This document shows, piece after piece, positions 2,726 through 62,358 of a stretch of 64,000 bases of DNA. The notes under the pieces are model-generated. The model saw nothing but the letters and a program-made list of their open reading frames with translations. It searched no databases and had not been told where the DNA came from. Position 1 is the stretch's first letter; every line of letters starts with the position of its first letter. The DNA is from Corallococcus soli. Lineage in GTDB: Bacteria > Myxococcota > Myxococcia > Myxococcales > Myxococcaceae. The position numbers were made by a program, and so were the translations under genes. The stretch spans positions 1 through 64,000 of the forward strand of contig NZ_JAAIYO010000010.1 of NCBI RefSeq assembly GCF_014930455.1, written 5' to 3'.

Positions 2726-3265
2726 TCACCCGGCGAAGAGCTTGCGCACCTGCGCCGGGTCGGGACTTCCACCAAGTGGAAGTTGCAGGAAGGACTGGAG
2801 CTGCCACTTCTGCGTCCTGATGGCTTCCGGCACCACCGGCTTGGACCAGGGGGGATAGACGCGGATGGCGCGCTTGCCGCCCTGGTGGGCGCGGGACATG
2901 ACCCCCTTGTCCACCAGGGTCTTCTGGGTGAACACGAACTGGCCGCGGTGCTCCGCGTCGCCCACGCTCACCACGACGAAGGCCACGCCGTCGTCCCTGT
3001 CGAGTGGCGCGATCTCCCCTTCGGGCACGGGCCGCTTCCACAGCGTCACGAACTGCCCGACCTTGGTGGGGGTCGTCTTGGCCACGCGGAAGACGATGGG
3101 GCGACCGTCGAGCGCGAAGCGGCAGGCGCCATACTCGGCGCTCTCTTCTTCGCGCAGCGCCGGGGTGGTGACGTTCATCCCGGCCGGCGCGTAGGCCTCC
3201 CGGAGGGCGGTCAGGAGATCGTGGGGGAGATGCCCCAGGGCGGGGTCGACCAGGTGTGCGCTCAT
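2726..3265 (-). CDS. MepB family protein
   Basis: A 179-residue protein matching the MepB family, named after the third gene of the Staphylococcus aureus mepRAB operon; the molecular function is unknown. Family hallmarks are visible: the EEESAEYGACRF stretch near residue 40, KTTPTKVGQFVTLWKR near residue 65, GQFVFTQKTLVDKGVMS near 110 and RVYPPW followed by TQKWQL near 140-155. Start chosen at the ATG (complement of 3263-3265) because a GAGGAG ribosome site lies about 8 bases upstream; an in-frame ATG 27 codons earlier exists but lacks such a site, and the chosen length fits the family. It runs convergently to the PKS on its left and lies 107 bp downstream of the methyltransferase, perhaps in the same transcript. 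No link to the polyketide pathway is evident. Confidence 0.85.
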   Translation of the reverse strand: MSAHLVDPALGHLPHDLLTALREAYAPAGMNVTTPALREEESAEYGACRFALDGRPIVFRVAKTTPTKVGQFVTLWKRPVPEGEIAPLDRDDGVAFVVVSVGDAEHRGQFVFTQKTLVDKGVMSRAHQGGKRAIRVYPPWSKPVVPEAIRTQKWQLQSFLQLPLGGSPDPAQVRKLFAG

Positions 3266-3372
3266 GAGGGGGCTCCTCGGCGGATGGACTTCTTGTTTAG
3301 CCTCTTCGAAGCCCTTGGCCAGGATCTGGACGTGCTCGTCAGCCATGGCCTTGAGGAGGCCTGCCCGGCCGC

Positions 3373-4041
3373 TCACCCCAGGGGCGCGACGCGCTTGACG
3401 CCGGAGGCCCCGCCATATGACGACAGCATGTATTCGGCCTTCTCGAAGCGCTCGAGCTCCGCGTGCATCCGCCGGAAGACGGCGCCCGCGTTGTGGTGGC
3501 CTTCGTGGCTGCCGCCGTAGTCGCGCGACAGCCAGACCGTCAGCGGGTTGAAGAGGGCCTTCCAGCCGGTGGCCAGCTGCATGTCTCCGACGAGCACCAG
3601 GCCGCCGGGACGCACGCTGTTCCACAGGCGCTGATAGGCCTCCTGCCAGTGGGGGATGATGGACAGCCCCAGCGTGCACACGCCCGCGTCGAACTGCGTG
3701 GCGCCGTGCTCCCTCCAGTTGAAGCGCGTGACGTCCGCGTGCTTCAGCTCCACGTTGCGCCACCCCGCCTTCTCCACCCGCTCCCGCGCCAACGCGAGCA
3801 TGTCGTCGGAGAAGTCCACCCCCAGGATGTGTCCTTCCGGCCCCACCTTCTCCATCAGGAACGGCAGGTCCTTGCCCGAGCCGCAGCAGACGACGAGGAC
3901 ACGATCGCCCCGGCGCAACCCGGTCCGCCGGAAATAATCAGCCTTCGCGTCGTTGAAGACTCCGGGGAGCTTCGCCTCGTAGGCCCCGGCGCGCTGCCCC
4001 GCGTAGAGGAACGCCACCTGAATGTTTCTCTCCCCGTTCAT
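3373..4041 (-). CDS. class I SAM-dependent methyltransferase (UbiE/small-molecule type)
   Basis: A 222-residue cytoplasmic Rossmann-fold methyltransferase. Motif I is VLVVCCGSGKD (residues 48-58), the acidic residue after strand 2 is Asp76 (GVDFS), HADV near 101-104 is the adenine-side motif, and RPGGLVLVGD (144-153) is the post-strand-5 motif. The substrate cannot be told from sequence; lipid or quinone methyltransferases and natural-product tailoring enzymes share this fold. It is divergent from the trans-AT PKS genes across a 566-bp control region, which makes a role in the same pathway possible but unproven. The ribosome site before the ATG is weak. Confidence 0.82.
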   Translation of the reverse strand: MNGERNIQVAFLYAGQRAGAYEAKLPGVFNDAKADYFRRTGLRRGDRVLVVCCGSGKDLPFLMEKVGPEGHILGVDFSDDMLALARERVEKAGWRNVELKHADVTRFNWREHGATQFDAGVCTLGLSIIPHWQEAYQRLWNSVRPGGLVLVGDMQLATGWKALFNPLTVWLSRDYGGSHEGHHNAGAVFRRMHAELERFEKAEYMLSSYGGASGVKRVAPLG

Positions 4042-50139: not shown

Positions 50140-50560
50140 CCGCCCCCCGCGTCTTCACTCTTCCTTCCAAAACCCTCCCGTCCGTACGCCACACCCAAGG
50201 TTCTCACCATGAAAAGCACCCCGGAGTGGAACGTCGAACCCGCCGAAGGCGCGCCGCCGCAGCTGCCCGAGCAGCAGCTGTCCATGCGTGACCGGCTGCG
50301 CCTCACCGAGAGCGCGGAGTCCCACCTGAAGGAGCTGCTGTCGGCGGAGACGAAGCTCCCGCTCGTCTCCATCGAGGCGCAGAAGCCGCTGCAGAAGTAC
50401 GGCATCGACTCCATCCTCATCTCCAACCTCACGCGCAAGCTGGAGGGGACGTTCGGCCCGCTGCCGAAGACGCTCTTCTTCGAGCACAAGACGCTGAGCT
50501 CGGTGGCCGAGTACTTCGTGGACCACCACCGGCCGCAGCTCGTGAGGGCGGTCGGGTTCT
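45901..50560 (+). other. PKS module 10 (split over two proteins): KS10-DH7-KR9 | ACP11
   Basis: PKS3 residues: KS10 4108-4536 (Cys4279); DH7 with HVVGGHRLLP (His4755) and DGAFQ (Asp4919); KR9 with GGLGRLG near 5278 and Tyr5421, where the usual Asn four residues on (YxxxN) is Ser5425. The ACP is at the N-terminus of PKS4 (Ser68 in YGIDSI). Predicted outcome: a double bond if KR9 is active. Confidence 0.86.
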
Positions 50561-53500
50561 CCCCGGAGGATGCCCTCTTCCTGTCCGCAAGCGCCTCCCA
50601 GGCCGCCGTCGCCGGCCCCACGCCGGAGGCCCCTCCGGCGCCGTCGCGCCCCCAGGCCCCGGACGCCGCGGGCCGCGGACAGGCCAGCCGCTTCTGGCGC
50701 CGCGACGGCGCCAAGGCCCCGCGCGCTCCGGAGCCGCGCGCCAGCGAGCCGCCCATCGCCATCATCGGACTGGCGGGCCGCTACCCGGACGCGGACGACG
50801 TGGCGCAGTTCTGGGACAACCTGAAGTCCGGCCGTGACTCCATCCGTGAGATCCCCGCCGACCGCTGGGACGTGGAGAAGTACTTCGAGCCGGTGAAGAA
50901 CCGCCTGGGCCGCACCTACAGCAAGTGGGGCGGGTTCGTGCGCGACCACGACCGCTTCGACCACCGCTTCTTCTCCATGTCCAAGGCGGACGCGGACTTC
51001 ACCGACCCGCAGGAGCGCGTCTGGCTGGAGTGCGTCTGGCACGCGCTGGAGGACGCCGGCTACACGCCGCAGGGCCTGCACGGCAAGCGCGTGGGCGTGT
51101 TCGTCGGCGTGATGTCGAACATGTACCAGAAGCTGGACGTGGTGGTGGATGGCTACGCCATCGCGCCGGTGGCGTCCGCCGCCTCCATCGCCAACCGCGT
51201 GTCGTACCAGATGGACTTCACCGGCCCCAGCCTCACGCTGGACACGATGTGCTCCTCGTCGCTCACCGCCATCCACCTGGCCAGCGAGAGCCTCAAGCGC
51301 GGCGAGTGCGACGTGGCCATCGCGGGCGGCGTCAACCTCATCGTCCACCCGAACAAGTACGTGATGCTGAGCCTCAACGGCTTCCTCTCCACCGACGGCC
51401 GCTGCCGCAGCTTCGGCGAGGGCGGCGACGGCTACGTGCCCGGCGAGGGCGCGGGCGCGGTGGTGCTCAAGGCCGCGACCGCCGCGGAGGCGGACGGCGA
51501 CCACGTCTACGGGCTCATCCGGGGCAGCTCCATCAACCACGGCGGCCGCGTCAACGGCTACACCGTGCCCAGCCCCACGGCGCAGGCCTCCCTCATCGAG
51601 GACGCCTTCACCCGCGCGGGCGTGAACCCGCGCCGGCTGAGCTACGTCGAAGCGCACGGCACCGGCACGTCCCTGGGCGACCCGGTGGAGGTGCGCGCGC
51701 TCTCCATCGCCATGGAGAAGCAGACGACGGAGCGGCAGTTCTGCGCCATCGGCTCGGTGAAGTCGAACATCGGGCACCTGGAGTCCGCCGCCGGCATCGC
51801 GGGCCTCACCAAGGTGCTGCTCCAGATGCACCATGAGCAGCTGGTGCCGTCGCTGCACAGCGACAAGCTCAACCCGAACATCGACTTCCGCAACTCCCCC
51901 GTCTACGTGCAGCGCGCGCTGACGGACTGGGCGCCCGCGTCCTCGGCCACCGGCGAGGCGCAGCCGCGCATGGCGGCCGTGAGCGGCTTCGGCGCGGGCG
52001 GCTCCAACGCCCACGTCATCATCGAGGAGGCCCCGGCCCCCCGGTCGCGCGCCGCGGAGGACGCCACGGGGGCTCGCGTGGTCCTGCTGTCGGCGGCCAC
52101 GCTGGAGCAGCTGCGCGACTACGCGCGGCGCTTCATCGCGTTCCTGGAGGCGCCGGGCGCCTCCCGTCCGACGCTCGCGGAGGTGGCCTTCACCACCCAG
52201 GTGGGCCGCGTGGCGCTGGATGAGCGCATCGCGTTCGTGGTGAGCAGCACGGGCCAGCTGCTGGAGCGCCTGCGCGCCTTCGCGGCGGGCGCGGCGTCCC
52301 AGCCGGACACCTACCGGGGCACCGTCAAGGAGGGCGGCTCCGGGGGCGTGGCGGCCTCGCTCGTCAGCGGCCCGGAGGGCGCGGAGATCGTCCGCATCCT
52401 GATGGCCGGTGGCAACTTCACCAAGCTGTGCCAGCTCTGGGCCATGGGCCTGGACGTGGAGTGGGCCGGCCTCTACGGCGCCCAGCATCCCCGCCGCGTG
52501 TCGCTGCCCGGCTACCCCTTCGCGCGCACCCACTGCTGGGTCCCGGAGTCCTCGCAGGCCGCCGCCCCCGTCGCGCGGGCGAGCGCCGCGCCGCCGGCCA
52601 TCACCCCGGTCGCCGCCGCGCCCGTGGCCGCCACGGACGCGGATCCGCTGCACGAGCTCATCCTCAACGCCGTCTCCGTCGTCAACCCCGTGGCGCGCGC
52701 GGACATGACCGTGGATCAGCTCCTGTTCGAGGAGCTGCACTTCGACTCCATCATGCTCGCGCAGCTCAACACGCGCCTGATGCAGTCGTTCCCGGACCTG
52801 GCCCTGTCCCCGGAGCTCTACTCGCCGGAGATCACCATCCGGAAGCTCGCGGACAAGCTGCGCGAGCTCCAGGGCGGCCCCGTGACGGCCGCGGCGCCGG
52901 CCCTGGAGTCCTCCACCACCCCGGCCCCGGCCACCGCCTCCGCGAGCGTCGCGGGCGAGGTCCCGGACCGCGTGGAGACCTTCCCGGAGGTGGCGGCCAT
53001 CCGGCGCTGGAACGGGGTGCTGGAGCAGGCGGGCATGGCGCCGCTGCTGCCCCTGGAGGGCCCCAACGGCGTCGTCATCCAGCAGGGCGAGGCGTCGCTG
53101 CTCAACTTCTCCACCTATGACTTCCTGGGGCTCGCGTCGGACCGGCGCGTGAAGGACGCGGCCATCCAGGCGGCGGGGCACTTCGGCACGTCCGCGTCGG
53201 CCAGCCGGCCGGTGTCCGGTGAGATGCCGCTGTACCGCGAGTTCGAGCAGAAGCTGGCCACGTTCATGGGCACCGAGCACGCGGTGCTCTTCGTGTCCGG
53301 CCACGCCACCAACGTCACCACGCTGGAGATCCTCATCGGGCAGGGGGACCTGCTGCTCGTCGACGAGGCCAGCCGCGACCGCAACCTGGCCGAGGGCGGC
53401 TTCGTGTCCGGCGCGGAGGTGATGGTCTTCCCGCACAACGACCCGGCCGCGCTGGACGCCCTGCTCACCCAGGTGCGCAACCGCTACCGCAAGGTCGTCA

Positions 53501-55545
53501 TCGCGGTGGAGGGCATCTACACGCGCGACGGTGACATCCCGGACCTGCCGCGCTTCGTGGAGCTGAAGAAGAAGCACCACGCGTTCCTGCTGGTGGACGA
53601 GGACAACTCCTTCGGCGTCCTGGGCGCCACCGGCCGCGGCGTGTGCGAGCACTTCGGCATCGCCCCCGGCGAGGTGGACATCCACTCGGGCGGCATCAAC
53701 AAGTCGCTCGCCAGCTGCGGCGGCTTCGTCGCGGGCGACCGCGCGCTGGTGGACTACATCAAGCACCACGCGACCAGCCTCATCTTCGCCGTCTCCATCT
53801 CCCCCATGAGCACCGCCTCCGCCATCAAGGCCCTGGACGTGCTGGAGGCGGAGCCCGAGCGGGCGAAGCGCGCCCGCGACACCGCCAGCCTCCTGCGCGG
53901 GGAGCTCGTCTCGCGCGGCTGGAAGGCGGGCGGCAGCGAGGGCAGCCCCTACGTCGTCGTCACCGTGCCCGACACCACGGCCAGCCTGGCCCTGGCGCAC
54001 GCGCTGCGGCAGAAGGGCGTCGTGGCGGACTGGCGCGGCGCGAACGACCTGGGCGAGGACCGCGCGCAGATCATCTTCTGCGCCACCGCCGAACACACCG
54101 AGGACCACGTCCTGCGCGTGCTCGAAGCCCTGGAAGGCGAACTGCCCAGGCTGACCGCGGGCGACGCCCGGCTGGCGGCCCTCGTGACCCCGGCGGAGGC
54201 CGAGTGGCGCAAGGCCTTCGGGCCCTCGCTGGACCACCGCATCGCCCGCGACGCGGCGGGCCTGCGCTCGCAGGCGCCGGTGTTCGAAGGTGAGGTCCCC
54301 ACCGAGCTGTACCGGGTGGCGGAGTTCCCGGAATACAAGAATATGACGAAGCGCCTCACCACGGTGGCGCCGGACCAGTTCCTGTACTTCAAGCCGCATG
54401 AGGGCCGCGTCAGCGATACCATCTGCGTCGGCGGCCGACGGATGATCAACTACTCCAGCTTCAACTACCTGGGCCTGTCCGGGAACGATGAGGTGGTCGC
54501 GGGGGCCCAGACGTCGGTGGAGCGCTACGGCACGTCGTCGTCCGCCAGCCGCCGGGGCAGCGGCACCTTGCAGGTGCACCGCGAGCTGGAGAAGGAGCTG
54601 GCGGACTTCATCGGCGTGGAGGAGGCCATCGTCTTCGACGCGGGCCACAACACCAACGTGAGCACGGTGGGGCACCTGTTCGGCAAGGGCGACCTCGTGC
54701 TGCACGACTCGCTCAGCCACAACAGCCTCATCCAGGGCGCGCTGCTGTCGGGCGCGGACCGCCAGCCCTTCCCGCACAACGACTACGACGCGGTGGACGC
54801 CATCCTCACCAACCTGCGCGGCCGCTACCGCCGCGTGGGCGTCATCATCGAGGGCATCTACAGCCAGGACGGCGACATCCCGGACCTGAAGAAGTTCATC
54901 GAGGTGAAGAAGCGCCACCAGGCCATCCTCTTCATCGACGAGGCGCACTCCATTGGCGTCATCGGGCCGTCGGGCCGGGGCGTCGCGGAGCAGTTCGGCG
55001 TGGATCCCGCCGACTGCGACATCCTCATGGGCACCATCAGCAAGAGCCTGGCGACGTCCGGCGGCTACGTGGCCGGCAGCCGCGCGCTCATCGACCTGCT
55101 GCGCGAAACGCCCTGCTACCGCAACAACGTCAACCTGTCCGCCGCGGTCGCGGGCGCGGCGCTGGAGGCCGTGCGCGTGCTGCGCCGCAACCCGGAGAAG
55201 GTGGCCACGCTGCACGCGCGCGCCAACCTCTTCCTCACGCTCGCCAAGGCGCACCAGCTCAACACGGGCCTGAGCAACGGGAGCGGCATCGTCCCGTTGA
55301 TGACGTACAGCTCCGCGCTGGCCTACCGCATGACGTACGCGCTGCTGGAGATGGGCGTCACCGTCCATCCGTTCACGTACCCCGTCGTCCCGGAAGGACA
55401 GGCCCGCCTGCGCTTCTTCATCACGGCGGACCACACCGAGGAGCAGATCCGCTTCACCGTGAAGGAGATGGCGCGCGTCGCGCGCGACTTCCACGCGGAA
55501 CAGGCAGCCGCGGGCAAGCCGCGTCTGTCCAACACCGGGAGCTGA
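50209..55545 (+). CDS. trans-AT polyketide synthase 4: ACP11, KS11-ACP12 and tandem alpha-oxoamine synthase release domains
   Basis: A protein of 1778 residues ending the line. ACP11 (Ser68) belongs to module 10. KS11 occupies 182-608 (Cys348 in TMCSSS, AHGTGT, NIGHLE). ACP12 has Ser847 in HFDSIM. Two PLP-dependent alpha-oxoamine synthase domains follow, AOS1 (928-1320) and AOS2 (1358-1768). Such enzymes condense an acyl thioester with an amino acid, lose CO2 and free an alpha-amino ketone; here they replace a thioesterase. AOS2 keeps the ring-stacking His1504, the DEAHS motif (Asp1577, His1580) and the PLP lysine Lys1612 in SKS. AOS1 keeps Lys1165 and Asp1130 but has Arg1056 and Asn1133 at the two histidine positions. 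The start ATG is preceded by only a weak AAGG. Confidence 0.94.
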   Translation: MKSTPEWNVEPAEGAPPQLPEQQLSMRDRLRLTESAESHLKELLSAETKLPLVSIEAQKPLQKYGIDSILISNLTRKLEGTFGPLPKTLFFEHKTLSSVAEYFVDHHRPQLVRAVGFSPEDALFLSASASQAAVAGPTPEAPPAPSRPQAPDAAGRGQASRFWRRDGAKAPRAPEPRASEPPIAIIGLAGRYPDADDVAQFWDNLKSGRDSIREIPADRWDVEKYFEPVKNRLGRTYSKWGGFVRDHDRFDHRFFSMSKADADFTDPQERVWLECVWHALEDAGYTPQGLHGKRVGVFVGVMSNMYQKLDVVVDGYAIAPVASAASIANRVSYQMDFTGPSLTLDTMCSSSLTAIHLASESLKRGECDVAIAGGVNLIVHPNKYVMLSLNGFLSTDGRCRSFGEGGDGYVPGEGAGAVVLKAATAAEADGDHVYGLIRGSSINHGGRVNGYTVPSPTAQASLIEDAFTRAGVNPRRLSYVEAHGTGTSLGDPVEVRALSIAMEKQTTERQFCAIGSVKSNIGHLESAAGIAGLTKVLLQMHHEQLVPSLHSDKLNPNIDFRNSPVYVQRALTDWAPASSATGEAQPRMAAVSGFGAGGSNAHVIIEEAPAPRSRAAEDATGARVVLLSAATLEQLRDYARRFIAFLEAPGASRPTLAEVAFTTQVGRVALDERIAFVVSSTGQLLERLRAFAAGAASQPDTYRGTVKEGGSGGVAASLVSGPEGAEIVRILMAGGNFTKLCQLWAMGLDVEWAGLYGAQHPRRVSLPGYPFARTHCWVPESSQAAAPVARASAAPPAITPVAAAPVAATDADPLHELILNAVSVVNPVARADMTVDQLLFEELHFDSIMLAQLNTRLMQSFPDLALSPELYSPEITIRKLADKLRELQGGPVTAAAPALESSTTPAPATASASVAGEVPDRVETFPEVAAIRRWNGVLEQAGMAPLLPLEGPNGVVIQQGEASLLNFSTYDFLGLASDRRVKDAAIQAAGHFGTSASASRPVSGEMPLYREFEQKLATFMGTEHAVLFVSGHATNVTTLEILIGQGDLLLVDEASRDRNLAEGGFVSGAEVMVFPHNDPAALDALLTQVRNRYRKVVIAVEGIYTRDGDIPDLPRFVELKKKHHAFLLVDEDNSFGVLGATGRGVCEHFGIAPGEVDIHSGGINKSLASCGGFVAGDRALVDYIKHHATSLIFAVSISPMSTASAIKALDVLEAEPERAKRARDTASLLRGELVSRGWKAGGSEGSPYVVVTVPDTTASLALAHALRQKGVVADWRGANDLGEDRAQIIFCATAEHTEDHVLRVLEALEGELPRLTAGDARLAALVTPAEAEWRKAFGPSLDHRIARDAAGLRSQAPVFEGEVPTELYRVAEFPEYKNMTKRLTTVAPDQFLYFKPHEGRVSDTICVGGRRMINYSSFNYLGLSGNDEVVAGAQTSVERYGTSSSASRRGSGTLQVHRELEKELADFIGVEEAIVFDAGHNTNVSTVGHLFGKGDLVLHDSLSHNSLIQGALLSGADRQPFPHNDYDAVDAILTNLRGRYRRVGVIIEGIYSQDGDIPDLKKFIEVKKRHQAILFIDEAHSIGVIGPSGRGVAEQFGVDPADCDILMGTISKSLATSGGYVAGSRALIDLLRETPCYRNNVNLSAAVAGAALEAVRVLRRNPEKVATLHARANLFLTLAKAHQLNTGLSNGSGIVPLMTYSSALAYRMTYALLEMGVTVHPFTYPVVPEGQARLRFFITADHTEEQIRFTVKEMARVARDFHAEQAAAGKPRLSNTGS
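52990..54168 (+). other. AOS1: degenerate alpha-oxoamine synthase domain
   Basis: PKS4 residues 928-1320, homologous to AOS2 over its full length (NFSTYDFLGL start, VDEDNSFGVLG, GGINKSLASCGG). Two cofactor-contact histidines are lost: ASRDR (Arg1056) where AOS2 has LSHNS, and DEDNS (Asn1133) where the family has DEAHS. Lys1165 remains. It is probably inactive or altered and may act as a structural partner of AOS2. Confidence 0.75.
54280..55542 (+). other. AOS2: alpha-oxoamine synthase domain with intact catalytic residues
   Basis: PKS4 residues 1358-1768: NYSSFNYLGLSG start, His1504 in DSLSHNS (stacks on PLP), DEAHS with Asp1577 and His1580, GTISKSLATSGGY with Lys1612 for the PLP Schiff base. 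All family-conserved residues that can be judged by eye are present. Confidence 0.88.
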
Positions 55546-55579: not shown

Positions 55580-56269
55580 ATGTCACTGATTGAGTTGAAC
55601 GGAGTCGAGAAGAGCTACCAGATGGGTGAGATGCTGGTGCAGGCGCTCAAGGGCGTCGACCTGTCCATCCGCGAGCAGGAGTTCATGGCCGTGGTCGGCC
55701 CGTCCGGTTCGGGCAAGAGCACGCTGCTCAACCTGATTGGCACCATCGACGAGCCCACCGCGGGCTCGGTGTCCCTCAAGGGCCAGGACGTCAACAAGCT
55801 GAAGGACAACGAGCGCACGGAGCTGCGCAACCGCACCATCGGGTTCGTCTTCCAGCGCTTCAACCTGGTGCCGGTGCTCACCGCGCTGGAGAACGTGTCG
55901 CTGCCCCTGGAACTGCAGGGCATCAAGGCCGCGGAGGCCCGCAAGCGCGCGCTGGCGGCGCTGGAGGAGGTGGGGCTGGCCGCCCAGGTCCGCCACCGTC
56001 CGGATCAGCTCTCCGGCGGTCAGCAGCAGCGCGTCGCCATCGCGCGGGCGCTGGTGACCAACCCCTCGCTGGTCATCGCGGACGAGCCCACGGCCAACCT
56101 GGACTCGGACACGTCCCAGAAGATCATCGAGCTCATGCGCAACCTCAACACGCGCCACAAGACCACCTTCATCTTCTCCACGCACGACCAGCGCCTGCTG
56201 GGGCACGTGGACCGGCTCGTCCACCTGCAGGACGGCCGCATCATCAGCGCCCCCGGTGCACACTCATGA
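55580..56269 (+). CDS. ABC transporter ATPase, LolD/MacB type
   Basis: A 229-residue cytoplasmic ATPase: Walker A GPSGSGKST (40-48), Q-loop FVFQRFN, signature LSGGQQQR, Walker B LVIADEPT and the switch STHDQ. Length and motifs fit the LolD/MacB/FtsE subfamily, which works with FtsX-fold permeases to move lipids, lipoproteins or hydrophobic products rather than import nutrients. AAAGGA before the ATG is a good ribosome site. It starts 34 bp after PKS4 and overlaps the permease by 4 bp (ATGA), so it is co-transcribed with the PKS genes and likely serves product export. Confidence 0.92.
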   Translation: MSLIELNGVEKSYQMGEMLVQALKGVDLSIREQEFMAVVGPSGSGKSTLLNLIGTIDEPTAGSVSLKGQDVNKLKDNERTELRNRTIGFVFQRFNLVPVLTALENVSLPLELQGIKAAEARKRALAALEEVGLAAQVRHRPDQLSGGQQQRVAIARALVTNPSLVIADEPTANLDSDTSQKIIELMRNLNTRHKTTFIFSTHDQRLLGHVDRLVHLQDGRIISAPGAHS

Positions 56270-57498
56270 TTTCCACGTTCTTCGCCGTCGCCTTCCGCAA
56301 CATCCTCAAGAACCGCCGCCGCTCGCTCGTCACGCTGCTGGCCTTCGGCGTGGGCTTCGCCGCGCTGTCGCTGTTCCGGGGCTACACCACCAACGTCTTC
56401 GAGGAGCTGCGCAGCTCCGCCATCCTGGACGAAGGCCTGGGGCACCTGACCATCTCCAAGGAGGGCTGGCGGGAGAAGGGCAGCCTGGATCCGGAGAAGT
56501 ACCTGCTCACGAAGGACGAGCTCGACAAGGTCGCCGCCATCGTGAAGGCGGAGCCGGGCGTGGTGATGGTCAGCCCGAAGCTCAACCTGGCGGGGCTCGC
56601 GTCCAACGGCAAGGTGTCGCAGATCTTCATCGCCGAGGGCGTCGTCCCGGAGGACTTCAAGGCGCTCAGCCGCGCGGACGCCAAAGTGCGCTCGAAGCTC
56701 AGCCAGCAGACCCCCGACGCGGTGGAGATCGGCGAGGGCCTGGCGCGCCTGATGGACATCCAGGGCGGCGAGGGCTCCGCGGTGCTGTCGGGCGTGACGC
56801 TCGCCGGGCAGATGAACGCCATCGACGTGCAGGTGGTGCGCGCGTTCAACACCGGCGTGCCGGACACCAACGACAAGTTCGTGCGCATGCCGCTGGAACT
56901 GGCGCAGCAGCTGTATGAGACGGACCGCGCGGACCGCATCCTGGTGCTGCTCAATGACGTGGAGGCCACGGAGGCCACCCGCACGAACCTGCTCACCAAG
57001 CTGCGCGGGGCGGGGCTGTCCATGGAGATCAAGACCTGGGAGGAGCTGTCCGTCTTCTTCGCGGGCACCAACGAGATGCTGGGCATCCTGCTGAGCTTCA
57101 TGGGCAGCATCGTGCTGGTCATCGTGGTGATGAGCGTCATCAACACCATGGGCGTGGCCGTCATGGAGCGCACGCGGGAGATCGGGACGCTGCGCGCGCT
57201 GGGCCTGAAGAAGCAGGGCACCGTGACGCTCTTCGCCCTGGAGGGCGCGATGCTGGGCGTGCTGGGGTGCCTCATCGGCACCGCCATCCACACCGCCGTG
57301 TGGGCCGTCATCAAGGTGGCGCAGCCCATGTACACGCCGCCGGGCTTCTCCGAAGAGGTGCCCTTCGTCATCGCCTACGTGCCGGAGTTCCTCGTGGGGC
57401 TGGGCTTCTTCATGGTCGTCTTCGCCCTGTTCGCGGCCATCCTCCCCGCCTCGCGCGCCTCCAAGCAGTCGGTGGTCGTCTCGCTGGGCCACATCTGA
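56266..57498 (+). CDS. ABC transporter permease, FtsX/LolE/MacB fold
   Basis: A 410-residue inner-membrane protein with the classic layout: TM1 near 22-40, a large periplasmic domain (about 45-270), then TM2 (about 272-297), TM3 (about 318-345) and TM4 (about 372-395). The motif RTREIGTLRALGLKK after TM2 is typical of FtsX-family permeases. It overlaps the ATPase by 4 bp, so the two are translationally coupled. Together they form a transporter that takes a substrate from the inner membrane to a periplasmic carrier, probably the LolA-like protein next door. Confidence 0.9.
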   Translation: MISTFFAVAFRNILKNRRRSLVTLLAFGVGFAALSLFRGYTTNVFEELRSSAILDEGLGHLTISKEGWREKGSLDPEKYLLTKDELDKVAAIVKAEPGVVMVSPKLNLAGLASNGKVSQIFIAEGVVPEDFKALSRADAKVRSKLSQQTPDAVEIGEGLARLMDIQGGEGSAVLSGVTLAGQMNAIDVQVVRAFNTGVPDTNDKFVRMPLELAQQLYETDRADRILVLLNDVEATEATRTNLLTKLRGAGLSMEIKTWEELSVFFAGTNEMLGILLSFMGSIVLVIVVMSVINTMGVAVMERTREIGTLRALGLKKQGTVTLFALEGAMLGVLGCLIGTAIHTAVWAVIKVAQPMYTPPGFSEEVPFVIAYVPEFLVGLGFFMVVFALFAAILPASRASKQSVVVSLGHI

Positions 57499-57567
57499 CG
57501 AATATCCCGGGGGATGGGTCGTCCTTAGGGGCAGAGCCTGTCCCTTCTTCCTGAAAGTGGTGCTGTG

Positions 57568-58305
57568 ATGAAGATGCTTCGGAATCTGCTGGGCCTGGGG
57601 GTGCTGCTGGTCGCGAGTGTCGCCGCCGCGGACGTGGACGGCATGGCCATCATCCGCGAGGCGGACCTGTCTCGTGGCAACTCCGAGGGCGTCGTGTGGG
57701 ACGTCAAGGTGGAGGAGGCCACGGGCTCCAAGAAGACCGTGGGCGAGTACCAGGTGTCCGGCAAGGGCTACAACAGCCTGGTCGAGTTCACCGCCCCGGC
57801 GAACACCAAGGGCCGCAAGCTCCTGATGGTGGAGCGCAACATGTGGTTCATCCGCCCGGGCCTCAGCCGCCCGGTGCCCATCTCCCCGCGCCAGCGGCTG
57901 CTGGGCAGCGCGGCCAACGGCGACCTGGCGTCCACCAACTACGGCGGCGCCTACGTCATCGAGAAGATGGCCGAGGCCAAGGTGGGCGAGAAGGACTGCT
58001 ACCTGTTCGACCTCAAGGCGGCCACCAACAACGCCACCTACGACCGTATCCGTTACTGGGTGGCCAAGGACTCCACCGTTGGCGTGAAGGCGGAGTTCCT
58101 CACCTCGTCGGGCAAGCTGCTCAAGAGCGCCACCTTCGAATACGACAACCAGGCCGAGTTCCAGGGCAAGGCGCGCAAGTTCATCTCGAAGATGGTCATC
58201 CATGATCCGGCGGCCACGGACTCGGTGACGACGCTGTCGTTCCGCAACGTGCGCGCGACGCCGGTGCCGGACTCGAAGTTCAACCTCAACCTCATCGCCC
58301 GCTGA
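57568..58305 (+). CDS. LolA-like outer-membrane lipoprotein-sorting-type periplasmic protein
   Basis: A 245-residue exported protein. A signal peptide is clear (MKMLRN, hydrophobic core, cleavage near VAAA-D21). The middle shows features of the LolA-like family often annotated as outer membrane lipoprotein-sorting protein: KGRKLLMVERNMWF, ISPRQRLLGSAANGDLASTNY. The fold binds acyl chains. ATG at 57568 was chosen over the adjacent GTG at 57565. It lies 69 bp after the permease. Proteins of this kind next to LolCDE-like ABC pairs, and in aryl-polyene clusters, are thought to ferry hydrophobic molecules across the periplasm; that role here is inferred. Confidence 0.85.
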   Translation: MKMLRNLLGLGVLLVASVAAADVDGMAIIREADLSRGNSEGVVWDVKVEEATGSKKTVGEYQVSGKGYNSLVEFTAPANTKGRKLLMVERNMWFIRPGLSRPVPISPRQRLLGSAANGDLASTNYGGAYVIEKMAEAKVGEKDCYLFDLKAATNNATYDRIRYWVAKDSTVGVKAEFLTSSGKLLKSATFEYDNQAEFQGKARKFISKMVIHDPAATDSVTTLSFRNVRATPVPDSKFNLNLIAR

Positions 58306-58361: not shown

Positions 58362-59864
58362 GTGCATCGGTCGGTGGCAGCGTGGGTAGCAGGGCTCCTC
58401 GTGTTCGTGGGTGGGAATGTCCACGCCCAGGACGCACGGACGCCGGTGGCGTCGGACGCGGAGGCCTCGGACGCGGAGGCCCTGGGTTCGGAGGGCGCCG
58501 ACGGTTCGGAGGGCTCCGGGGGCTTGGAGGGCGCCGGGGGCGAGGGGATGCCGGGCGCCGCCGGGACGCCCGTGCCGGACGCCGCGCTGCCGCAGGGCCC
58601 GATGGCGGACCCCACGGAGGACGACCTGGGCGCCTCCTACGAGGAGCCCCCCGTCGAGGACACCTTCCAGTACCGGGTGCGGCTGGTGGCCACGGGGCGC
58701 CTGCTGGGCCTGTCGGACGGGCCGCAGAACCCGCAGAACCTGTTCCTGCGCATCCCCGACCGCTCCGGCACCGTGGAGGGCCGGCCGGAGTTCGAGCTGA
58801 ACATGGGCCGGTGGGCGTTCTCCTTCCGGCCGCGCTTCCAGCTCAACCTGGCGGCCTGGCCGGACGGCGTCCCTGGCGGGGACGAAATCGACAACAACGA
58901 GTTCATCCTCCAGTGGTACGCGCGCTGGTCCCTGACGGACTCGCTGTTCGCGTCCTTCGGCAAGGAGAACCTCCAGTGGGGGCCGTCGCAGTTCTTCTCC
59001 CCCTCCAACCCCTTCTTCCTGGAGAACTTCCGCGCGGACCCCATCACGGAGGGGCGCGGCAGCTACTTCGCGCGCGTCACCTGGGTGCCGGACATCCGGT
59101 GGACGGTGAGCGCGCTGGCCAACCTCTTCGAGGAGGAGGTCACCAACCCCACGCGCGTGTTCGAGCGCCAGTACGCCCTCAAGGCGGACTACCAGGGCGA
59201 CCGCATCCAGGGCAGCCTCATTGGCGCCTACGGTGAGCGCAGCCGCATGCAACTGGGCGGCTACGGCATCTGGACGGCCAGCGACGCGTGGCTCATCTAC
59301 GGCGAGGGCAAGGTGGCCGCGCGCAACGCGGCGCTCTACCCGGTGGTGGATGGCGCGTCACCCTTCGGCGCGAGCATGGCGGTGCTGCCCAAGGACGACC
59401 AGGCCAACGCGACGGTGCTGGTGGGCAGCTCGTACACGCTGCAGATGAACGTCACGGTGACGGCGGAGCTGCTGCACAACAGCTCCGGCTACAGCAGCGC
59501 CCAGCAGGACCTGTACTTCGCGCTGCGCCGCAGCGCCTCGGGCGCGCTGTTCTCCCAGGGCCCGGAGGCCGGCTTCGCGGCCCAGGTGCTGGGACAGACG
59601 GCGTCCCCGGGCCTGCGCTTCACGGGCCGCAACTACGGCGTGCTTCAGGGCCGCTATGGCTGGGGGGATGACGGCGAGGTGCTGCTGCGCTGGTCCCACG
59701 GCCTGGACGACAACTCCGGCAGCATCGTGGGGATGACGTCCTTCCCGCTGGGCGACCACGTCTCGGCCGTCGCGCTGGGTGTCTACAACTACGGATCCAC
59801 CGACAGCGAGTCCGCGAGCGTGCTGCGGTACACGGGGCTCGCGGGGCTGGAATACACGTTCTGA
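58362..59864 (+). CDS. outer-membrane beta-barrel protein
   Basis: A 500-residue exported protein starting with GTG, with AGGAG about 8 bases upstream. The signal peptide ends near residue 22 (GNVHA-Q). An acidic Gly/Ser/Glu-rich low-complexity stretch (about 25-75) follows, then alternating hydrophobic/polar strands with many aromatic residues (for example FELNMGRWAFSFRPRFQLNL, 20 residues), turns rich in Asp/Gly, and a C-terminal strand ending in Phe (LEYTF), the usual recognition signal for BAM-mediated insertion. The family was not recognised with confidence. Its place after an ABC pair and a LolA-like carrier suggests an outer-membrane acceptor or exit pore for the polyketide product. 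Confidence 0.75.
   Translation: MHRSVAAWVAGLLVFVGGNVHAQDARTPVASDAEASDAEALGSEGADGSEGSGGLEGAGGEGMPGAAGTPVPDAALPQGPMADPTEDDLGASYEEPPVEDTFQYRVRLVATGRLLGLSDGPQNPQNLFLRIPDRSGTVEGRPEFELNMGRWAFSFRPRFQLNLAAWPDGVPGGDEIDNNEFILQWYARWSLTDSLFASFGKENLQWGPSQFFSPSNPFFLENFRADPITEGRGSYFARVTWVPDIRWTVSALANLFEEEVTNPTRVFERQYALKADYQGDRIQGSLIGAYGERSRMQLGGYGIWTASDAWLIYGEGKVAARNAALYPVVDGASPFGASMAVLPKDDQANATVLVGSSYTLQMNVTVTAELLHNSSGYSSAQQDLYFALRRSASGALFSQGPEAGFAAQVLGQTASPGLRFTGRNYGVLQGRYGWGDDGEVLLRWSHGLDDNSGSIVGMTSFPLGDHVSAVALGVYNYGSTDSESASVLRYTGLAGLEYTF
58452..58481 (+). repeat. 15-bp perfect tandem duplication in the acidic linker
   Basis: TCGGACGCGGAGGCC occurs twice head to tail, coding SDAEASDAEA in the low-complexity region after the signal peptide of the outer-membrane protein. 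Such units change copy number easily. Confidence 0.85.
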
Positions 59865-59880
59865 AGGACGAGGTCGCGCC

Positions 59881-62358
59881 ATGGTGACGTTTGTGTTTCC
59901 CGGACAGGGGGCCCAGAAGAAGGGCATGGGCAAGGTCCTGTTCGACGCCTTCCCGGAGCAGGTGCGCATCGCGGACGAGGTGCTGGGCTACTCCATCCGC
60001 ACGCTGTGCGAGCTGGACCCGGAGCGGCAGCTCGCGCAGACGCAGTTCACCCAGCCCGCGCTCTACGTGGTGGGCGCGCTGGCGTGGATGAAGCGGCAGG
60101 CGGAAGGCGCCCGCGCCCCGGACTTCGTCGCCGGCCACTCGCTGGGGGAATACAACGCGCTGCTCGTCGCGGGCGTGTTCGACTTCGCCACCGGCCTGCG
60201 CTTGGTGAAGCGGCGCGGGGAGCTGATGTCCCAGGCCAACGGCGGCGCCATGGCGGCCGTCATCGGGCTGGATGAGACGGCCATCCGGGGCGTCCTGTCC
60301 GACGCGCGGCTCACCACGCTGGACGTGGCGAACCTCAACACGCCGTCGCAGACGGTCATCGCCGGCCCGCGCGAGGACATCATCAAGGCGCAGGAGGCCT
60401 TCGACAAGCGCGGCGGCCGCTACGTGGTGCTCAACGTGAGCGCGCCGTTCCATTCGCGCTACATGCGGCCCGCGCAGGAGGCGTTCTCCGAGTTCCTCCA
60501 GGGCTTCACCTTCAAGGACCCGTCCATCCCGGTCATCGCCAACACCACCGCGCGGCCGTACGTCCCGGGCAGCGTGCGCGCGAACCTGTCCGAGCAGCTG
60601 CGCAGCCCGGTCCGCTGGTGCGAGACGGTCCGCTACCTGCTGGCGCGCGGCGTGTCACGCTTCGACGAGGTGGGGGAGAGCGAGGTCCTCACCAAGATGG
60701 TCGGGCAGATCCAGAAGGAGGCGGGTCCGCTGGAGCTGCGCGCGGAGCTGGCCTCGCCCGTGGCCGTCCCTTCCGTGCGCGCGGCGCAGGAGCCCGTGGT
60801 CGCGGGGCGGCCCGCTCCGGCGTCCGTGCGGCTGGAGTCCGTCCGGGACGTCGCCGCGCCCGCGCGCCCGCTGGCGGAAGCCACGCCCGTCCGTGAGCTG
60901 GCGCCGGCCGTGCGCGCCACGGAGCCGGCGGCCCCCGCGCGGCCCCGGTCCGACGGTGGCCGCGCGCATGCCGCGTCCACGCCCGCGTCGGAGGCGATGC
61001 TGGTGCGCCCGGACAACCTGGGCAGTGAGGCGTTCCGGCGCGAGTACCAGGTGCGCTACGCCTACTACGCGGGCTCCATGTACCGGGGCATCGCGTCGGA
61101 GGAGCTGGTGGCGCGCATGGCCCGCGCGGGGCTGCTGGCCTTCTACGGCACGGCGGGCCTGTCACCGGAGCGCGTGGAGCGCGCCATCACCGACATCCGC
61201 GCGAGCGTGGGCCCGGGGCTCACGTTCGGCATGAACCTGCTGAGCACCGGCCACGAGTCGGAGCTGGTGGAGCTGTTCCTGCGCCACGGCGTGGACGTCA
61301 TCGAAGCCTCCGCCTACGTGCAGCTGACCCCCGCGCTGGTGAAGTACCGGCTCGCGGGCCTGTCGCGCCGGCCGGACGGCTCCATCGCCGCGCGCAACCG
61401 CCTCATCGCGAAGGTGTCCCGCCCGGAGGTCGCGGAGGGCTTCTTCGCGCCCGCGCCGGAGCGCCTGGTGAAGAAGCTGCTGGAGCGCGGCGAGGTCACC
61501 GCGGAGCAGGCGGACCTGGCGCGCCACGTCCCGCTGGCGGACGACGTGTGCGTGGAGGCGGACTCGGGCGGGCACACCGACCAGGGCGTGGCCTACGTGC
61601 TGATGCCCGCCATGCTGCGCCTGCGCGACGCCATGGCCGCGAAGCACGGCTACAAGCAGGTGGTGCGGGTGGGGGCCGCAGGCGGCATCGGGACCCCGGA
61701 GGCCGCGGCGGCGGCGCTGATGCTGGGCGCGGACTTCCTCGTCACGGGCTCCATCAACCAGTGCACCGTGGAGGCCGGCCACAGCGACGCGGTGAAGGAC
61801 CTGCTGGAGAAGATCAACGTCCAGGACACCGACTACGCGCCCGCGGGCGACATGTTCGAGATGGGCGCCCGCGTGCAGGTGCTCAAGAAGGGCGTCTTCT
61901 TCCCGGCGCGCGCCAACCGCCTCTACGACCTGTACCGCAACTTCAACTCGCTGGACGAACTGGACGAGGCCACCCGCCGCACGCTCCAGGAGAAGTACTT
62001 CAAGCGCAGCTTCGAGGCTGTCTTCGAGGAGGTGCGCCAGTACAAGTCCGCCGCCGAGGTCGAGAAGGCCGAGCGCGACCCGAAGTACAAGATGCGCCTC
62101 ATCTTCAAGTGGTACTTCGCCTACACGAACCGGCTGGCCTTCAAGGGCGAGCGGGAGAACCAGGTGGACTTCCAGGTCCACTGCGGCTCCGCGCTGGGCG
62201 CCTTCAACCAGTGGGTCAAGGGCACGCCGCTGGAGGGCTGGCGGGCGCGTCACGTGGACGAGCTCGCGGAGAAGCTGATGACGGACACCGCCCACCTGCT
62301 GGGCCAGCGGATGCGCGCGATGATGGGCCACCCGCCGCTGCTGCGCGCCACCGGCTGA
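59881..62358 (+). CDS. trans-acting acyltransferase-enoylreductase (AT-ER, PksE type)
   Basis: An 825-residue cytosolic protein. Residues 1-300 are a malonyl-type AT: FVFPGQGAQ at the start, GHSLGE with Ser87 and FHS with His191. After a Pro/Ala-rich linker (about 300-370), residues 374-825 are an FMN-dependent enoylreductase of the PfaD family (DSGGHTDQG near 560, AAGGIGTPEAAAAA near 600, GSINQCTVEAGHS near 622). The AT should load malonyl on the AT-less modules. The ER can saturate selected enoyl intermediates in trans; which modules it serves is not encoded visibly. The N-terminus closely follows Bacillus PksE as I remember it. The ATG at 59881 has an AGGACGAGG ribosome site; an earlier in-frame start at 59779 would overlap the preceding gene. 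Confidence 0.93.
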   Translation: MVTFVFPGQGAQKKGMGKVLFDAFPEQVRIADEVLGYSIRTLCELDPERQLAQTQFTQPALYVVGALAWMKRQAEGARAPDFVAGHSLGEYNALLVAGVFDFATGLRLVKRRGELMSQANGGAMAAVIGLDETAIRGVLSDARLTTLDVANLNTPSQTVIAGPREDIIKAQEAFDKRGGRYVVLNVSAPFHSRYMRPAQEAFSEFLQGFTFKDPSIPVIANTTARPYVPGSVRANLSEQLRSPVRWCETVRYLLARGVSRFDEVGESEVLTKMVGQIQKEAGPLELRAELASPVAVPSVRAAQEPVVAGRPAPASVRLESVRDVAAPARPLAEATPVRELAPAVRATEPAAPARPRSDGGRAHAASTPASEAMLVRPDNLGSEAFRREYQVRYAYYAGSMYRGIASEELVARMARAGLLAFYGTAGLSPERVERAITDIRASVGPGLTFGMNLLSTGHESELVELFLRHGVDVIEASAYVQLTPALVKYRLAGLSRRPDGSIAARNRLIAKVSRPEVAEGFFAPAPERLVKKLLERGEVTAEQADLARHVPLADDVCVEADSGGHTDQGVAYVLMPAMLRLRDAMAAKHGYKQVVRVGAAGGIGTPEAAAAALMLGADFLVTGSINQCTVEAGHSDAVKDLLEKINVQDTDYAPAGDMFEMGARVQVLKKGVFFPARANRLYDLYRNFNSLDELDEATRRTLQEKYFKRSFEAVFEEVRQYKSAAEVEKAERDPKYKMRLIFKWYFAYTNRLAFKGERENQVDFQVHCGSALGAFNQWVKGTPLEGWRARHVDELAEKLMTDTAHLLGQRMRAMMGHPPLLRATG

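Follow-up and report, generated by a model that had tools for sequence, protein, structure and literature searches.

In passages of PMC6148460 the heterodimer of eukaryotic serine palmitoyltransferase (SPT) is called unique among alpha-oxoamine synthase (AOS) enzymes, the others being homodimers, and the same source, together with parts of PMC5371807, describes the SPT of coccolithovirus as a naturally occurring chimera in one chain, with the lysine-bearing unit N-terminal and an SPT1-like part C-terminal. Sections of PMC12134224 describe an AOS of P. fluorescens, SgaB, that has SPT activity, is a dimer as judged by its size and works with the polyketide synthase (PKS) SgaA, and a survey table in PMC3870968, as excerpted, holds seven AOS-type entries with one AOS domain each. 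Here we analysed a 64,000-nucleotide stretch of Corallococcus soli DNA (the window; NCBI RefSeq assembly GCF_014930455.1, contig NZ_JAAIYO010000010.1, positions 1 to 64,000), in which the gene for a terminal PKS protein encodes two AOS domains in tandem, AOS1 and AOS2. Judging from their sequences, we consider it likely that the two domains pair as a pseudo-heterodimer in a single chain, whose only active site lies in AOS2 and is completed by AOS1.

50209..55545, + strand: terminal trans-acyltransferase (trans-AT) PKS protein of 1778 aa, in the order acyl carrier protein (ACP), ketosynthase (KS), ACP, AOS1, AOS2; one open frame, by Pfam, NCBIfam and motif scans
52981..54168, + strand: AOS1, residues ~925-1320; predicted to have the complete AOS fold, with its own site dismantled and its partner loops mostly kept
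54169..54300 (limits approximate), + strand: AOS1-AOS2 linker, ~45 residues
54301..55503, + strand: AOS2, residues ~1365-1765; own-site residue set complete

By fold and by sequence both domains belong to the AOS family. The initial annotation had placed two full-length AOS domains in one polypeptide, and this was borne out by our comparison, in which AOS1 (segment 52960-54177) and AOS2 (segment 54268-55542) independently matched the solved AOS enzyme 3a2b with E-values of 1.1e-57 and 4.1e-64, respectively. SPT, KBL, ALAS and BioF chains were also matched by each of the two non-overlapping domains independently, and the frame is open throughout, with third-position GC of 0.96-1.0 over the domains. 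AOS1 and AOS2 share 38-39% identity.

Own-site and partner-loop residues of AOS1 and AOS2

The own-site residues are those named in the relevant passages of PMC10196870 and PMC3870968, and they were read off an alignment of AOS1, AOS2, 72 single-AOS homologs and S. multivorum SPT, whose numbering is used for the columns. AOS stretches shorter than 330 aa and near-copies were excluded before counting, and the stretches used for two of the 72 homolog rows (L033 and L055) are interrupted by a stop codon. Positions were divided into 10 own-site, 9 partner-site and 370 remaining ones, with positions 52, 111, 114 and 278 inspected and left out of scoring, and a residue was called never-seen when it was absent at its place in the 72 homologs.

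At eight of the ten own-chain contacts to cofactor or substrate, AOS1 bears letters found in 0/72 homologs (F972, R1056, T1105, D1132, N1133, G1162, N1164 and I1289 for Y, H, S, A, H, T, S and R, respectively). Of the eight columns, seven show no variation in 72/72 homologs, and the eighth is made up of 69 Ser and 3 Gly. His138, Ala212, His213, Thr241 and Arg367 are among the invariant ones, and the deviation of AOS1 at all five is not due to chance. The catalytic set of Lys, Asp, two His, Thr and Arg is incomplete in AOS1, where Asp1130 and Lys1165 are the only own-site survivors; one residue is inserted beside the lost stacking His, and the N-terminal Tyr-Phe pair (53 and 57 of 72 homologs), found as such in AOS2, is Leu-Leu in AOS1. 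The structural glycines of AOS1 are retained.

53374..53376, + strand: R1056, replacing the His that stacks on pyridoxal phosphate (PLP); from the homolog alignment
53596..53607, + strand: D1130-E-D1132-N1133, DEDN in place of DEAH; from the homolog alignment
53692..53703, + strand: G1162-I-N1164-K1165, the G-T-x-S-K motif without its Thr and Ser, Lys retained
54073..54075, + strand: I1289, replacing the substrate-carboxylate Arg; from the homolog alignment
53782..53793, + strand: I1192-F-A-V1195, AOS1 loop to the PLP-phosphate site of the partner, largely kept, with Ala1194 for Ser (loop assignment from passages of PMC10196870 and PMC3870968)

AOS2 retains all ten own-site residues, with the catalytic set complete. 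In homodimeric AOS enzymes, the loops SPT 80-85 and 271-274 cross into the active site of the partner (passages of PMC10196870 and PMC3870968), an opposite-chain status that we deduced from the residue-marking convention stated in PMC10196870, from its sentence setting Phe83, Leu84, Met271 and Phe272 in the core of one subunit against the other subunit, from the phrase 'Ser272 from the other subunit' in PMC3870968 and from the designation Ser-429/B in a passage of PMC5519370. In AOS2, R1449, G1450, R1638, N1639 and N1640, corresponding to SPT 83, 84, 271, 272 and 273, are each absent at their place in the 72 homologs. At the same positions AOS1 has P1001, V1002, I1192, F1193 and A1194, and only P1001 is unseen in the homologs.

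54718..54720, + strand: H1504, AOS2 PLP-stacking His
54937..54948, + strand: D1577-E-A-H1580 of AOS2
55042..55044, + strand: K1612, AOS2 Schiff-base Lys
55411..55413, + strand: R1735, AOS2 substrate-carboxylate Arg
54553..54558, + strand: R1449-G1450, in place of the partner-contacting hydrophobic pair (F83-L84 in SPT)
55120..55131, + strand: R1638-N-N-V1641, altered partner-reaching loop of AOS2

The motifs start at residues 1055 (SRDRN), 1130 (DEDNS) and 1161 (GGINKS) in AOS1 and at 1502 (LSHNS), 1577 (DEAHS) and 1608 (GTISKS) in AOS2, and all residue numbers given in the initial annotation for both domains proved correct. It had described Arg1056 and Asn1133 in place of both AOS1 histidines with Asp1130 and Lys1165 kept, which is what we found, but its account of the decay was incomplete, as the other losses of AOS1 (Tyr, Ser, Ala, Thr, Ser and Arg) had been missed; similarly, AOS2 does carry all the own-site residues expected there, but the alteration of its partner-reaching loops had gone unnoticed.

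Counting never-seen residues, AOS1 had 8/10 at own-site, 1/9 at partner-site and 42/370 at the remaining positions, and AOS2 had 0/10, 5/9 and 35/370, respectively. The hypergeometric P values for AOS1 were 1.9e-6 (own-site) and 0.72 (partner-site), and those for AOS2 were 1 (own-site) and 8.4e-4 (partner-site), the last being partly post hoc because the AOS2 loop was noticed before the position sets were drawn up. At its own site AOS1 scored −6.52, against a lowest homolog value of −0.52, and at the partner site −1.48, with 10 of the 72 homologs lower; AOS2 scored 0.00 at its own site and −3.86 at the partner site, under all 72 homologs (minimum, −3.09). Sixteen chosen divergent single homologs, scored alike, gave 0/10 at own-site, 0-2/9 at partner-site and 11 to 64 never-seen residues elsewhere. 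These values point to a reciprocal signature whose own-site part is strong and whose partner part is moderate. Such a pattern is what a pseudo-heterodimer predicts, since its catalytic half keeps its own site and is free to lose its partner loops and its dead half does the reverse, and this was broadly seen.

The proposed pairing and its alternatives

In the arrangement that we favour, AOS1 and AOS2 would pair as one pseudo-dimer, most simply within one chain, and the sole working PLP site would lie in AOS2, which would provide the lysine, the aspartate, both histidines, the Thr/Ser and the carboxylate arginine, while AOS1 would give the loops that the other subunit gives in a homodimer, namely the A998-S-R turn and residues 1192-1195. 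The own residues of AOS1 and the completing loops of AOS2 would be free to change because the site hosted by AOS1 would be dead. The preceding ACP would pass its chain, which is probably a beta-ketoacyl thioester, to the pair, which would condense it decarboxylatively with a PLP-held amino acid and release an alpha-amino ketone. The domain architecture, the residue changes in both domains, the intact fold predicted for each half and the high pTM of the tandem are results of the analysis; the interface, the cofactor stoichiometry, the activity, the amino acid and the product are inferred. A fused pseudo-heterodimer had already been suggested in the initial annotation, and the idea is supported by the reciprocal own-site and partner-loop changes, though the AOS1 loops are imperfect (Pro1001 and Ala1194).

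Structure prediction of the tandem, one of the checks proposed with that idea, was run with AlphaFold2 on residues 925-1778, with homologs placed either on the AOS2 half (run A3, 27 rows) or on the AOS1 half (run A4, 33 rows, anchored by six full or nearly full AOS1 copies), because trials with MAFFT placed all homologs on one half of the tandem. Models A3 and A4 had mean pLDDT of 79.2 and 75.6 and pTM of 0.82 and 0.80, respectively, with both folds intact. A pTM this high for two equal domains should need a confident relative placement, and what the models convey is this confidence in a predicted pairing. When superposed on 3a2b, the AOS2 model gave Z 51.7 over 390 residues at 1.7 A, and the AOS1 model Z 45.7 over 385 residues at 1.7 A. 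Fold searches with the tandem models returned only single-domain AOS chains and no fused pseudo-dimer among the best 50 matches listed, which excludes nothing.

The subunits of eukaryotic SPT served as controls. Human SPTLC2 and Arabidopsis LCB2a keep the own site except for Ser243 to Thr; on a nine-position own score without R367, before which the LCB1 stretches compared end, human SPTLC1 was altered at 9/9 and Arabidopsis LCB1 at 6/9 positions (keeping Tyr54, His138 and Asp210). One unit intact and one dismantled at its own site, the LCB2/LCB1 condition, is also what AOS2 and AOS1 present, and positions 210-216 read DEDNSFG in AOS1 vs DESNSFG in Arabidopsis LCB1. The partner-site scores of SPTLC2, LCB2a and the homodimeric S. 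multivorum SPT were −4.02, −3.09 and −0.93, respectively, and loop 271-274 reads C/V-F-S-A in LCB1 and V/L-Y-A-T in LCB2. The difference of own minus partner score ranged from −0.02 to 3.09 in the 72 homologs, with AOS1 (−4.89) and SPTLC1 (−4.37) below and AOS2 (3.86) and SPTLC2 (3.16) above this range; Arabidopsis LCB1, obtained by subtraction, was also below it (−1.92).

Apart from the post hoc element of the AOS2 P value, several observations weigh against this pairing. For the partner loops, eukaryotic SPT serves as a control only in part: SPTLC1 (−3.86) and LCB1 (−3.10) are also low there via the 81-85 turn, and the score fails to split LCB1 from LCB2; moreover, the LCB2 loop 271-274 falls inside the repertoire of the homologs, and the own-minus-partner difference of LCB2a (2.23, by subtraction) lies inside their range. 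Position 83 of AOS1 is Pro (P1001), as in 0/72 homologs, and position 273, that of the trans-phosphate Ser, is Ala, which occurs in 3/72 homologs and in none of the 47 single-AOS rows called PKS-type by clade, among which AOS1 and AOS2 fall; this Ala is the letter of human and Arabidopsis LCB2, whereas LCB1 retains Ser. The Schiff-base Lys and the Asp persist in AOS1, whereas LCB1-type subunits have no Lys at this place (Asn in human SPTLC1 and His in Arabidopsis LCB1 vs K1165 in AOS1). AlphaFold2 may pair any two AOS domains, and selection on the AOS1-AOS2 pair is not measurable because no second tandem was found.

PKSs are dimers, and AOS2 could instead pair with AOS2' of a second PKS chain, the only way open to synthases with a single AOS, with AOS1 and AOS1' forming an inert or structural homodimer. 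Single PKS-AOS fusions with one AOS per chain, the kept own-site set of AOS2 and the flaws of the AOS1 partner loop at 83 and 273 would all agree with such homodimers in trans. The AOS2 loops would then complete the sites of AOS2 itself, yet positions 83, 84 and 271-273 are R, G, R, N and N, unseen in the 72 homologs, and the AOS1 loops are mostly family-like though they would face a dead site only, for which reasons we regard this arrangement as unlikely. If AOS1 were a roleless remnant of a duplication or of domain capture, the alteration of 8/10 own-site residues and the detection of the tandem in no other of 195 phylum genomes would be natural. However, its off-repertoire residues cluster in the active site, and elsewhere (42/370) they are no commoner than in the 16 divergent homologs; its structural glycines, Asp and Lys are retained, its reading frame is uninterrupted and its predicted fold is intact; and simple decay leaves the changes of AOS2 unexplained, making it very unlikely.

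The position of AOS1 directly between the ACP and AOS2 would suit a gatekeeping or docking role, in which AOS1 would check the ACP-bound chain or pass it on and would not help to build the AOS2 site, but neither the kept partner loops of AOS1 nor the changes of AOS2 are accounted for by this role, whose chances we put slightly below even those of decay. The least probable alternative is that AOS1 binds PLP via Lys1165 and Asp1130, both retained, and catalyses a different reaction: the stacking His, the Ala under the ring (now Asp), the phosphate-binding Thr and Ser, the O3' His and the carboxylate Arg are all altered, as are the AOS2 loops that would reach the AOS1 site.

Relatives, origin and polyketide synthase setting

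Matches at E <= 1e-60 were found in 83 of the 195 phylum genomes, of which 49, including the genome of this locus, matched at E <= 1e-75, when up to nine candidates per genome were scored. The survey for tandem AOS proposed in the initial annotation found two AOS matches in one frame only in this genome at E <= 1e-60. Most of the stronger matches fall in frames ~700 to 2500 aa long, and in the loci retrieved the AOS lies, with exceptions, close to the C-terminal end. No second tandem was detected by tblastn with both domains in 26 loci found with six exact AOS1 peptides, a non-exhaustive search confined to close relatives, or by tblastn at 1e-20 in the loci around the phylum matches, where stretches below 330 aa were excluded and the flanking sequence is in many cases limited to 1.5 kb or by a contig end. 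Among the plasmid matches listed (25 of 662 records) the span was at most ~1.4 kb, hence a single AOS, and in 96 family genomes no match listed outside this genome covers both domains, the best listed being in AOS2 (70%). With single PKS-type AOS domains, AOS2 shares 45-52% identity and AOS1 37-45%.

Long frames with a single AOS domain, several of them ~2300 aa in length, are common in the phylum (L007-L035 and L066-L085), and some may be one-gene relatives of SgaA/SgaB and sphingolipid-like producers. In three Streptomyces loci (L044, L045 and L054), an AOS in a long frame is accompanied by a second AOS of another branch ~7 kb away. A 26,159-aa frame in one genome (L086-L090, G018:C100) was discarded because it arose from base masking, with 72,000 N among the 100,000 bases read.

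Phylogeny of both domains, likewise proposed earlier, placed AOS1 and AOS2 in the best trees with PKS-fused AOS domains (and Nocardia rows). When LCB1 and LCB2 were added and the own-site columns were removed, the group of PKS-AOS domains with AOS1 and AOS2 had support of 100/96, and LCB1 fell elsewhere. The description of the tandem as an independent bacterial version of LCB1/LCB2 agrees with this tree, but the approximately unbiased (AU) test did not reject a grouping of AOS1 with LCB1 (p 0.163); an independent bacterial origin is the best tree and not proof. Sisterhood of AOS1 and AOS2 was not in the best tree and was not rejected either (AU p 0.069). Eukaryotic LCB2 adjoined the bacterial PKS-AOS clade, with support of 100/97 on a long branch in one tree and 59/17 in the tree with LCB1. 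On balance we lean, by a little, toward the view that bacteria independently evolved an obligate AOS heterodimer as a single chain and PKS release machine, in which duplication, loss of one site and matching loss of partner loops would repeat the step taken by eukaryotic SPT. In such a heterodimer, new contacts, for instance between AOS2 Arg1638 or Arg1449 and AOS1 Asp1132, may hold the emptied AOS1 pocket.

The remaining domains of the protein are as follows.

50326..50514, + strand: first ACP, residues 40-102 (PF00550, E 2.1e-15)
50752..52026, + strand: ketosynthase, residues ~182-606, with DTMCSSS, HGTGT and NIGHLE motifs present
52651..52878 (limits approximate), + strand: second ACP, directly before AOS1, with LHFDSI at residue 843; a motif, not a Pfam match

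Pfam and NCBIfam scans of the 1778-aa protein gave no match to a ketoreductase, and because none follows the last KS in this protein, the chain passed to the release domains is probably a beta-ketoacyl thioester. Upstream, Pfam scans of the PKS proteins in pieces showed a loading adenylation domain and an ACP from 4608, and KS modules with many dehydratase and ketoreductase domains run to 50139. No acyltransferase was matched by Pfam in the PKS proteins and pieces scanned, and a separate acyltransferase with a nitronate-monooxygenase-like part lies at 59779-62358; the assembly line, with KS modules lacking an integral acyltransferase and a separate one, is a trans-AT polyketide synthase. Base 1 of the window is the first base of the contig, and the cluster is visible only from there. 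A contig-edge frame at 2-2716 (+ strand) carries an ACP, an NAD/FAD oxidoreductase-like part and an FSH1-type serine hydrolase, and a MepB-like gene lies on the opposite strand between this frame and the PKS start (2726-3763, − strand). Directly 3' of the AOS gene, 55580-58305 (+ strand) encodes a LolD-like ATPase, a LolE/MacB-like permease and a LolA-like protein, possibly for export or self-protection.

Comparison with known systems

If the proposed pairing is correct, the tandem would be a new type of chain-release unit for trans-AT PKSs and a tractable model, with no sign of a membrane complex so far, of the need for LCB1 and of the passage from a homodimeric PLP enzyme to a half-of-sites one. 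The reciprocal-loss test, own site against partner loops, could be tried on further pairs that arose by duplication among AOS or fold type I enzymes.

PKS-fused single AOS domains resemble AOS1 and AOS2 in that both fall with the 47 PKS-type rows, but they occur one per protein, all ten own-site residues are present in these rows, and they are expected to be homodimers. The P-protein of glycine decarboxylase, a fold type I PLP enzyme, offers a comparison from another family and reaction: one half has lost its cofactor site, and the halves are fused in many organisms. Eukaryotic SPT (LCB1/LCB2, SPTLC1/SPTLC2) likewise consists of two AOS paralogs, one with its own site intact and one dismantled, AOS2 being comparable to LCB2 and AOS1 to LCB1, and loop 272-274 is F-S-A in LCB1s and F-A-V in AOS1. 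It differs in that the present pair is one bacterial chain within a PKS, that AOS1 keeps Lys and Asp, and that the best tree puts AOS1 and AOS2 with PKS-fused AOS and not with LCB1.

No report of tandem AOS in a PKS was found among the titles and abstract openings returned by searches of an open-access library. A single-chain AOS heterodimer as such has a precedent in coccolithovirus SPT, where, according to passages of PMC6148460 and PMC5371807, catalytic and non-catalytic AOS units are likewise joined in one polypeptide; the viral enzyme was assayed with acyl-CoA, whereas here the order of the units is reversed and the substrate would be an ACP thioester. The novelty of the present case would thus be confined to its bacterial PKS version: the arrangement is known from LCB1/LCB2 and from the fused coccolithovirus SPT, and a fused variant borne by a bacterial PKS would be new.

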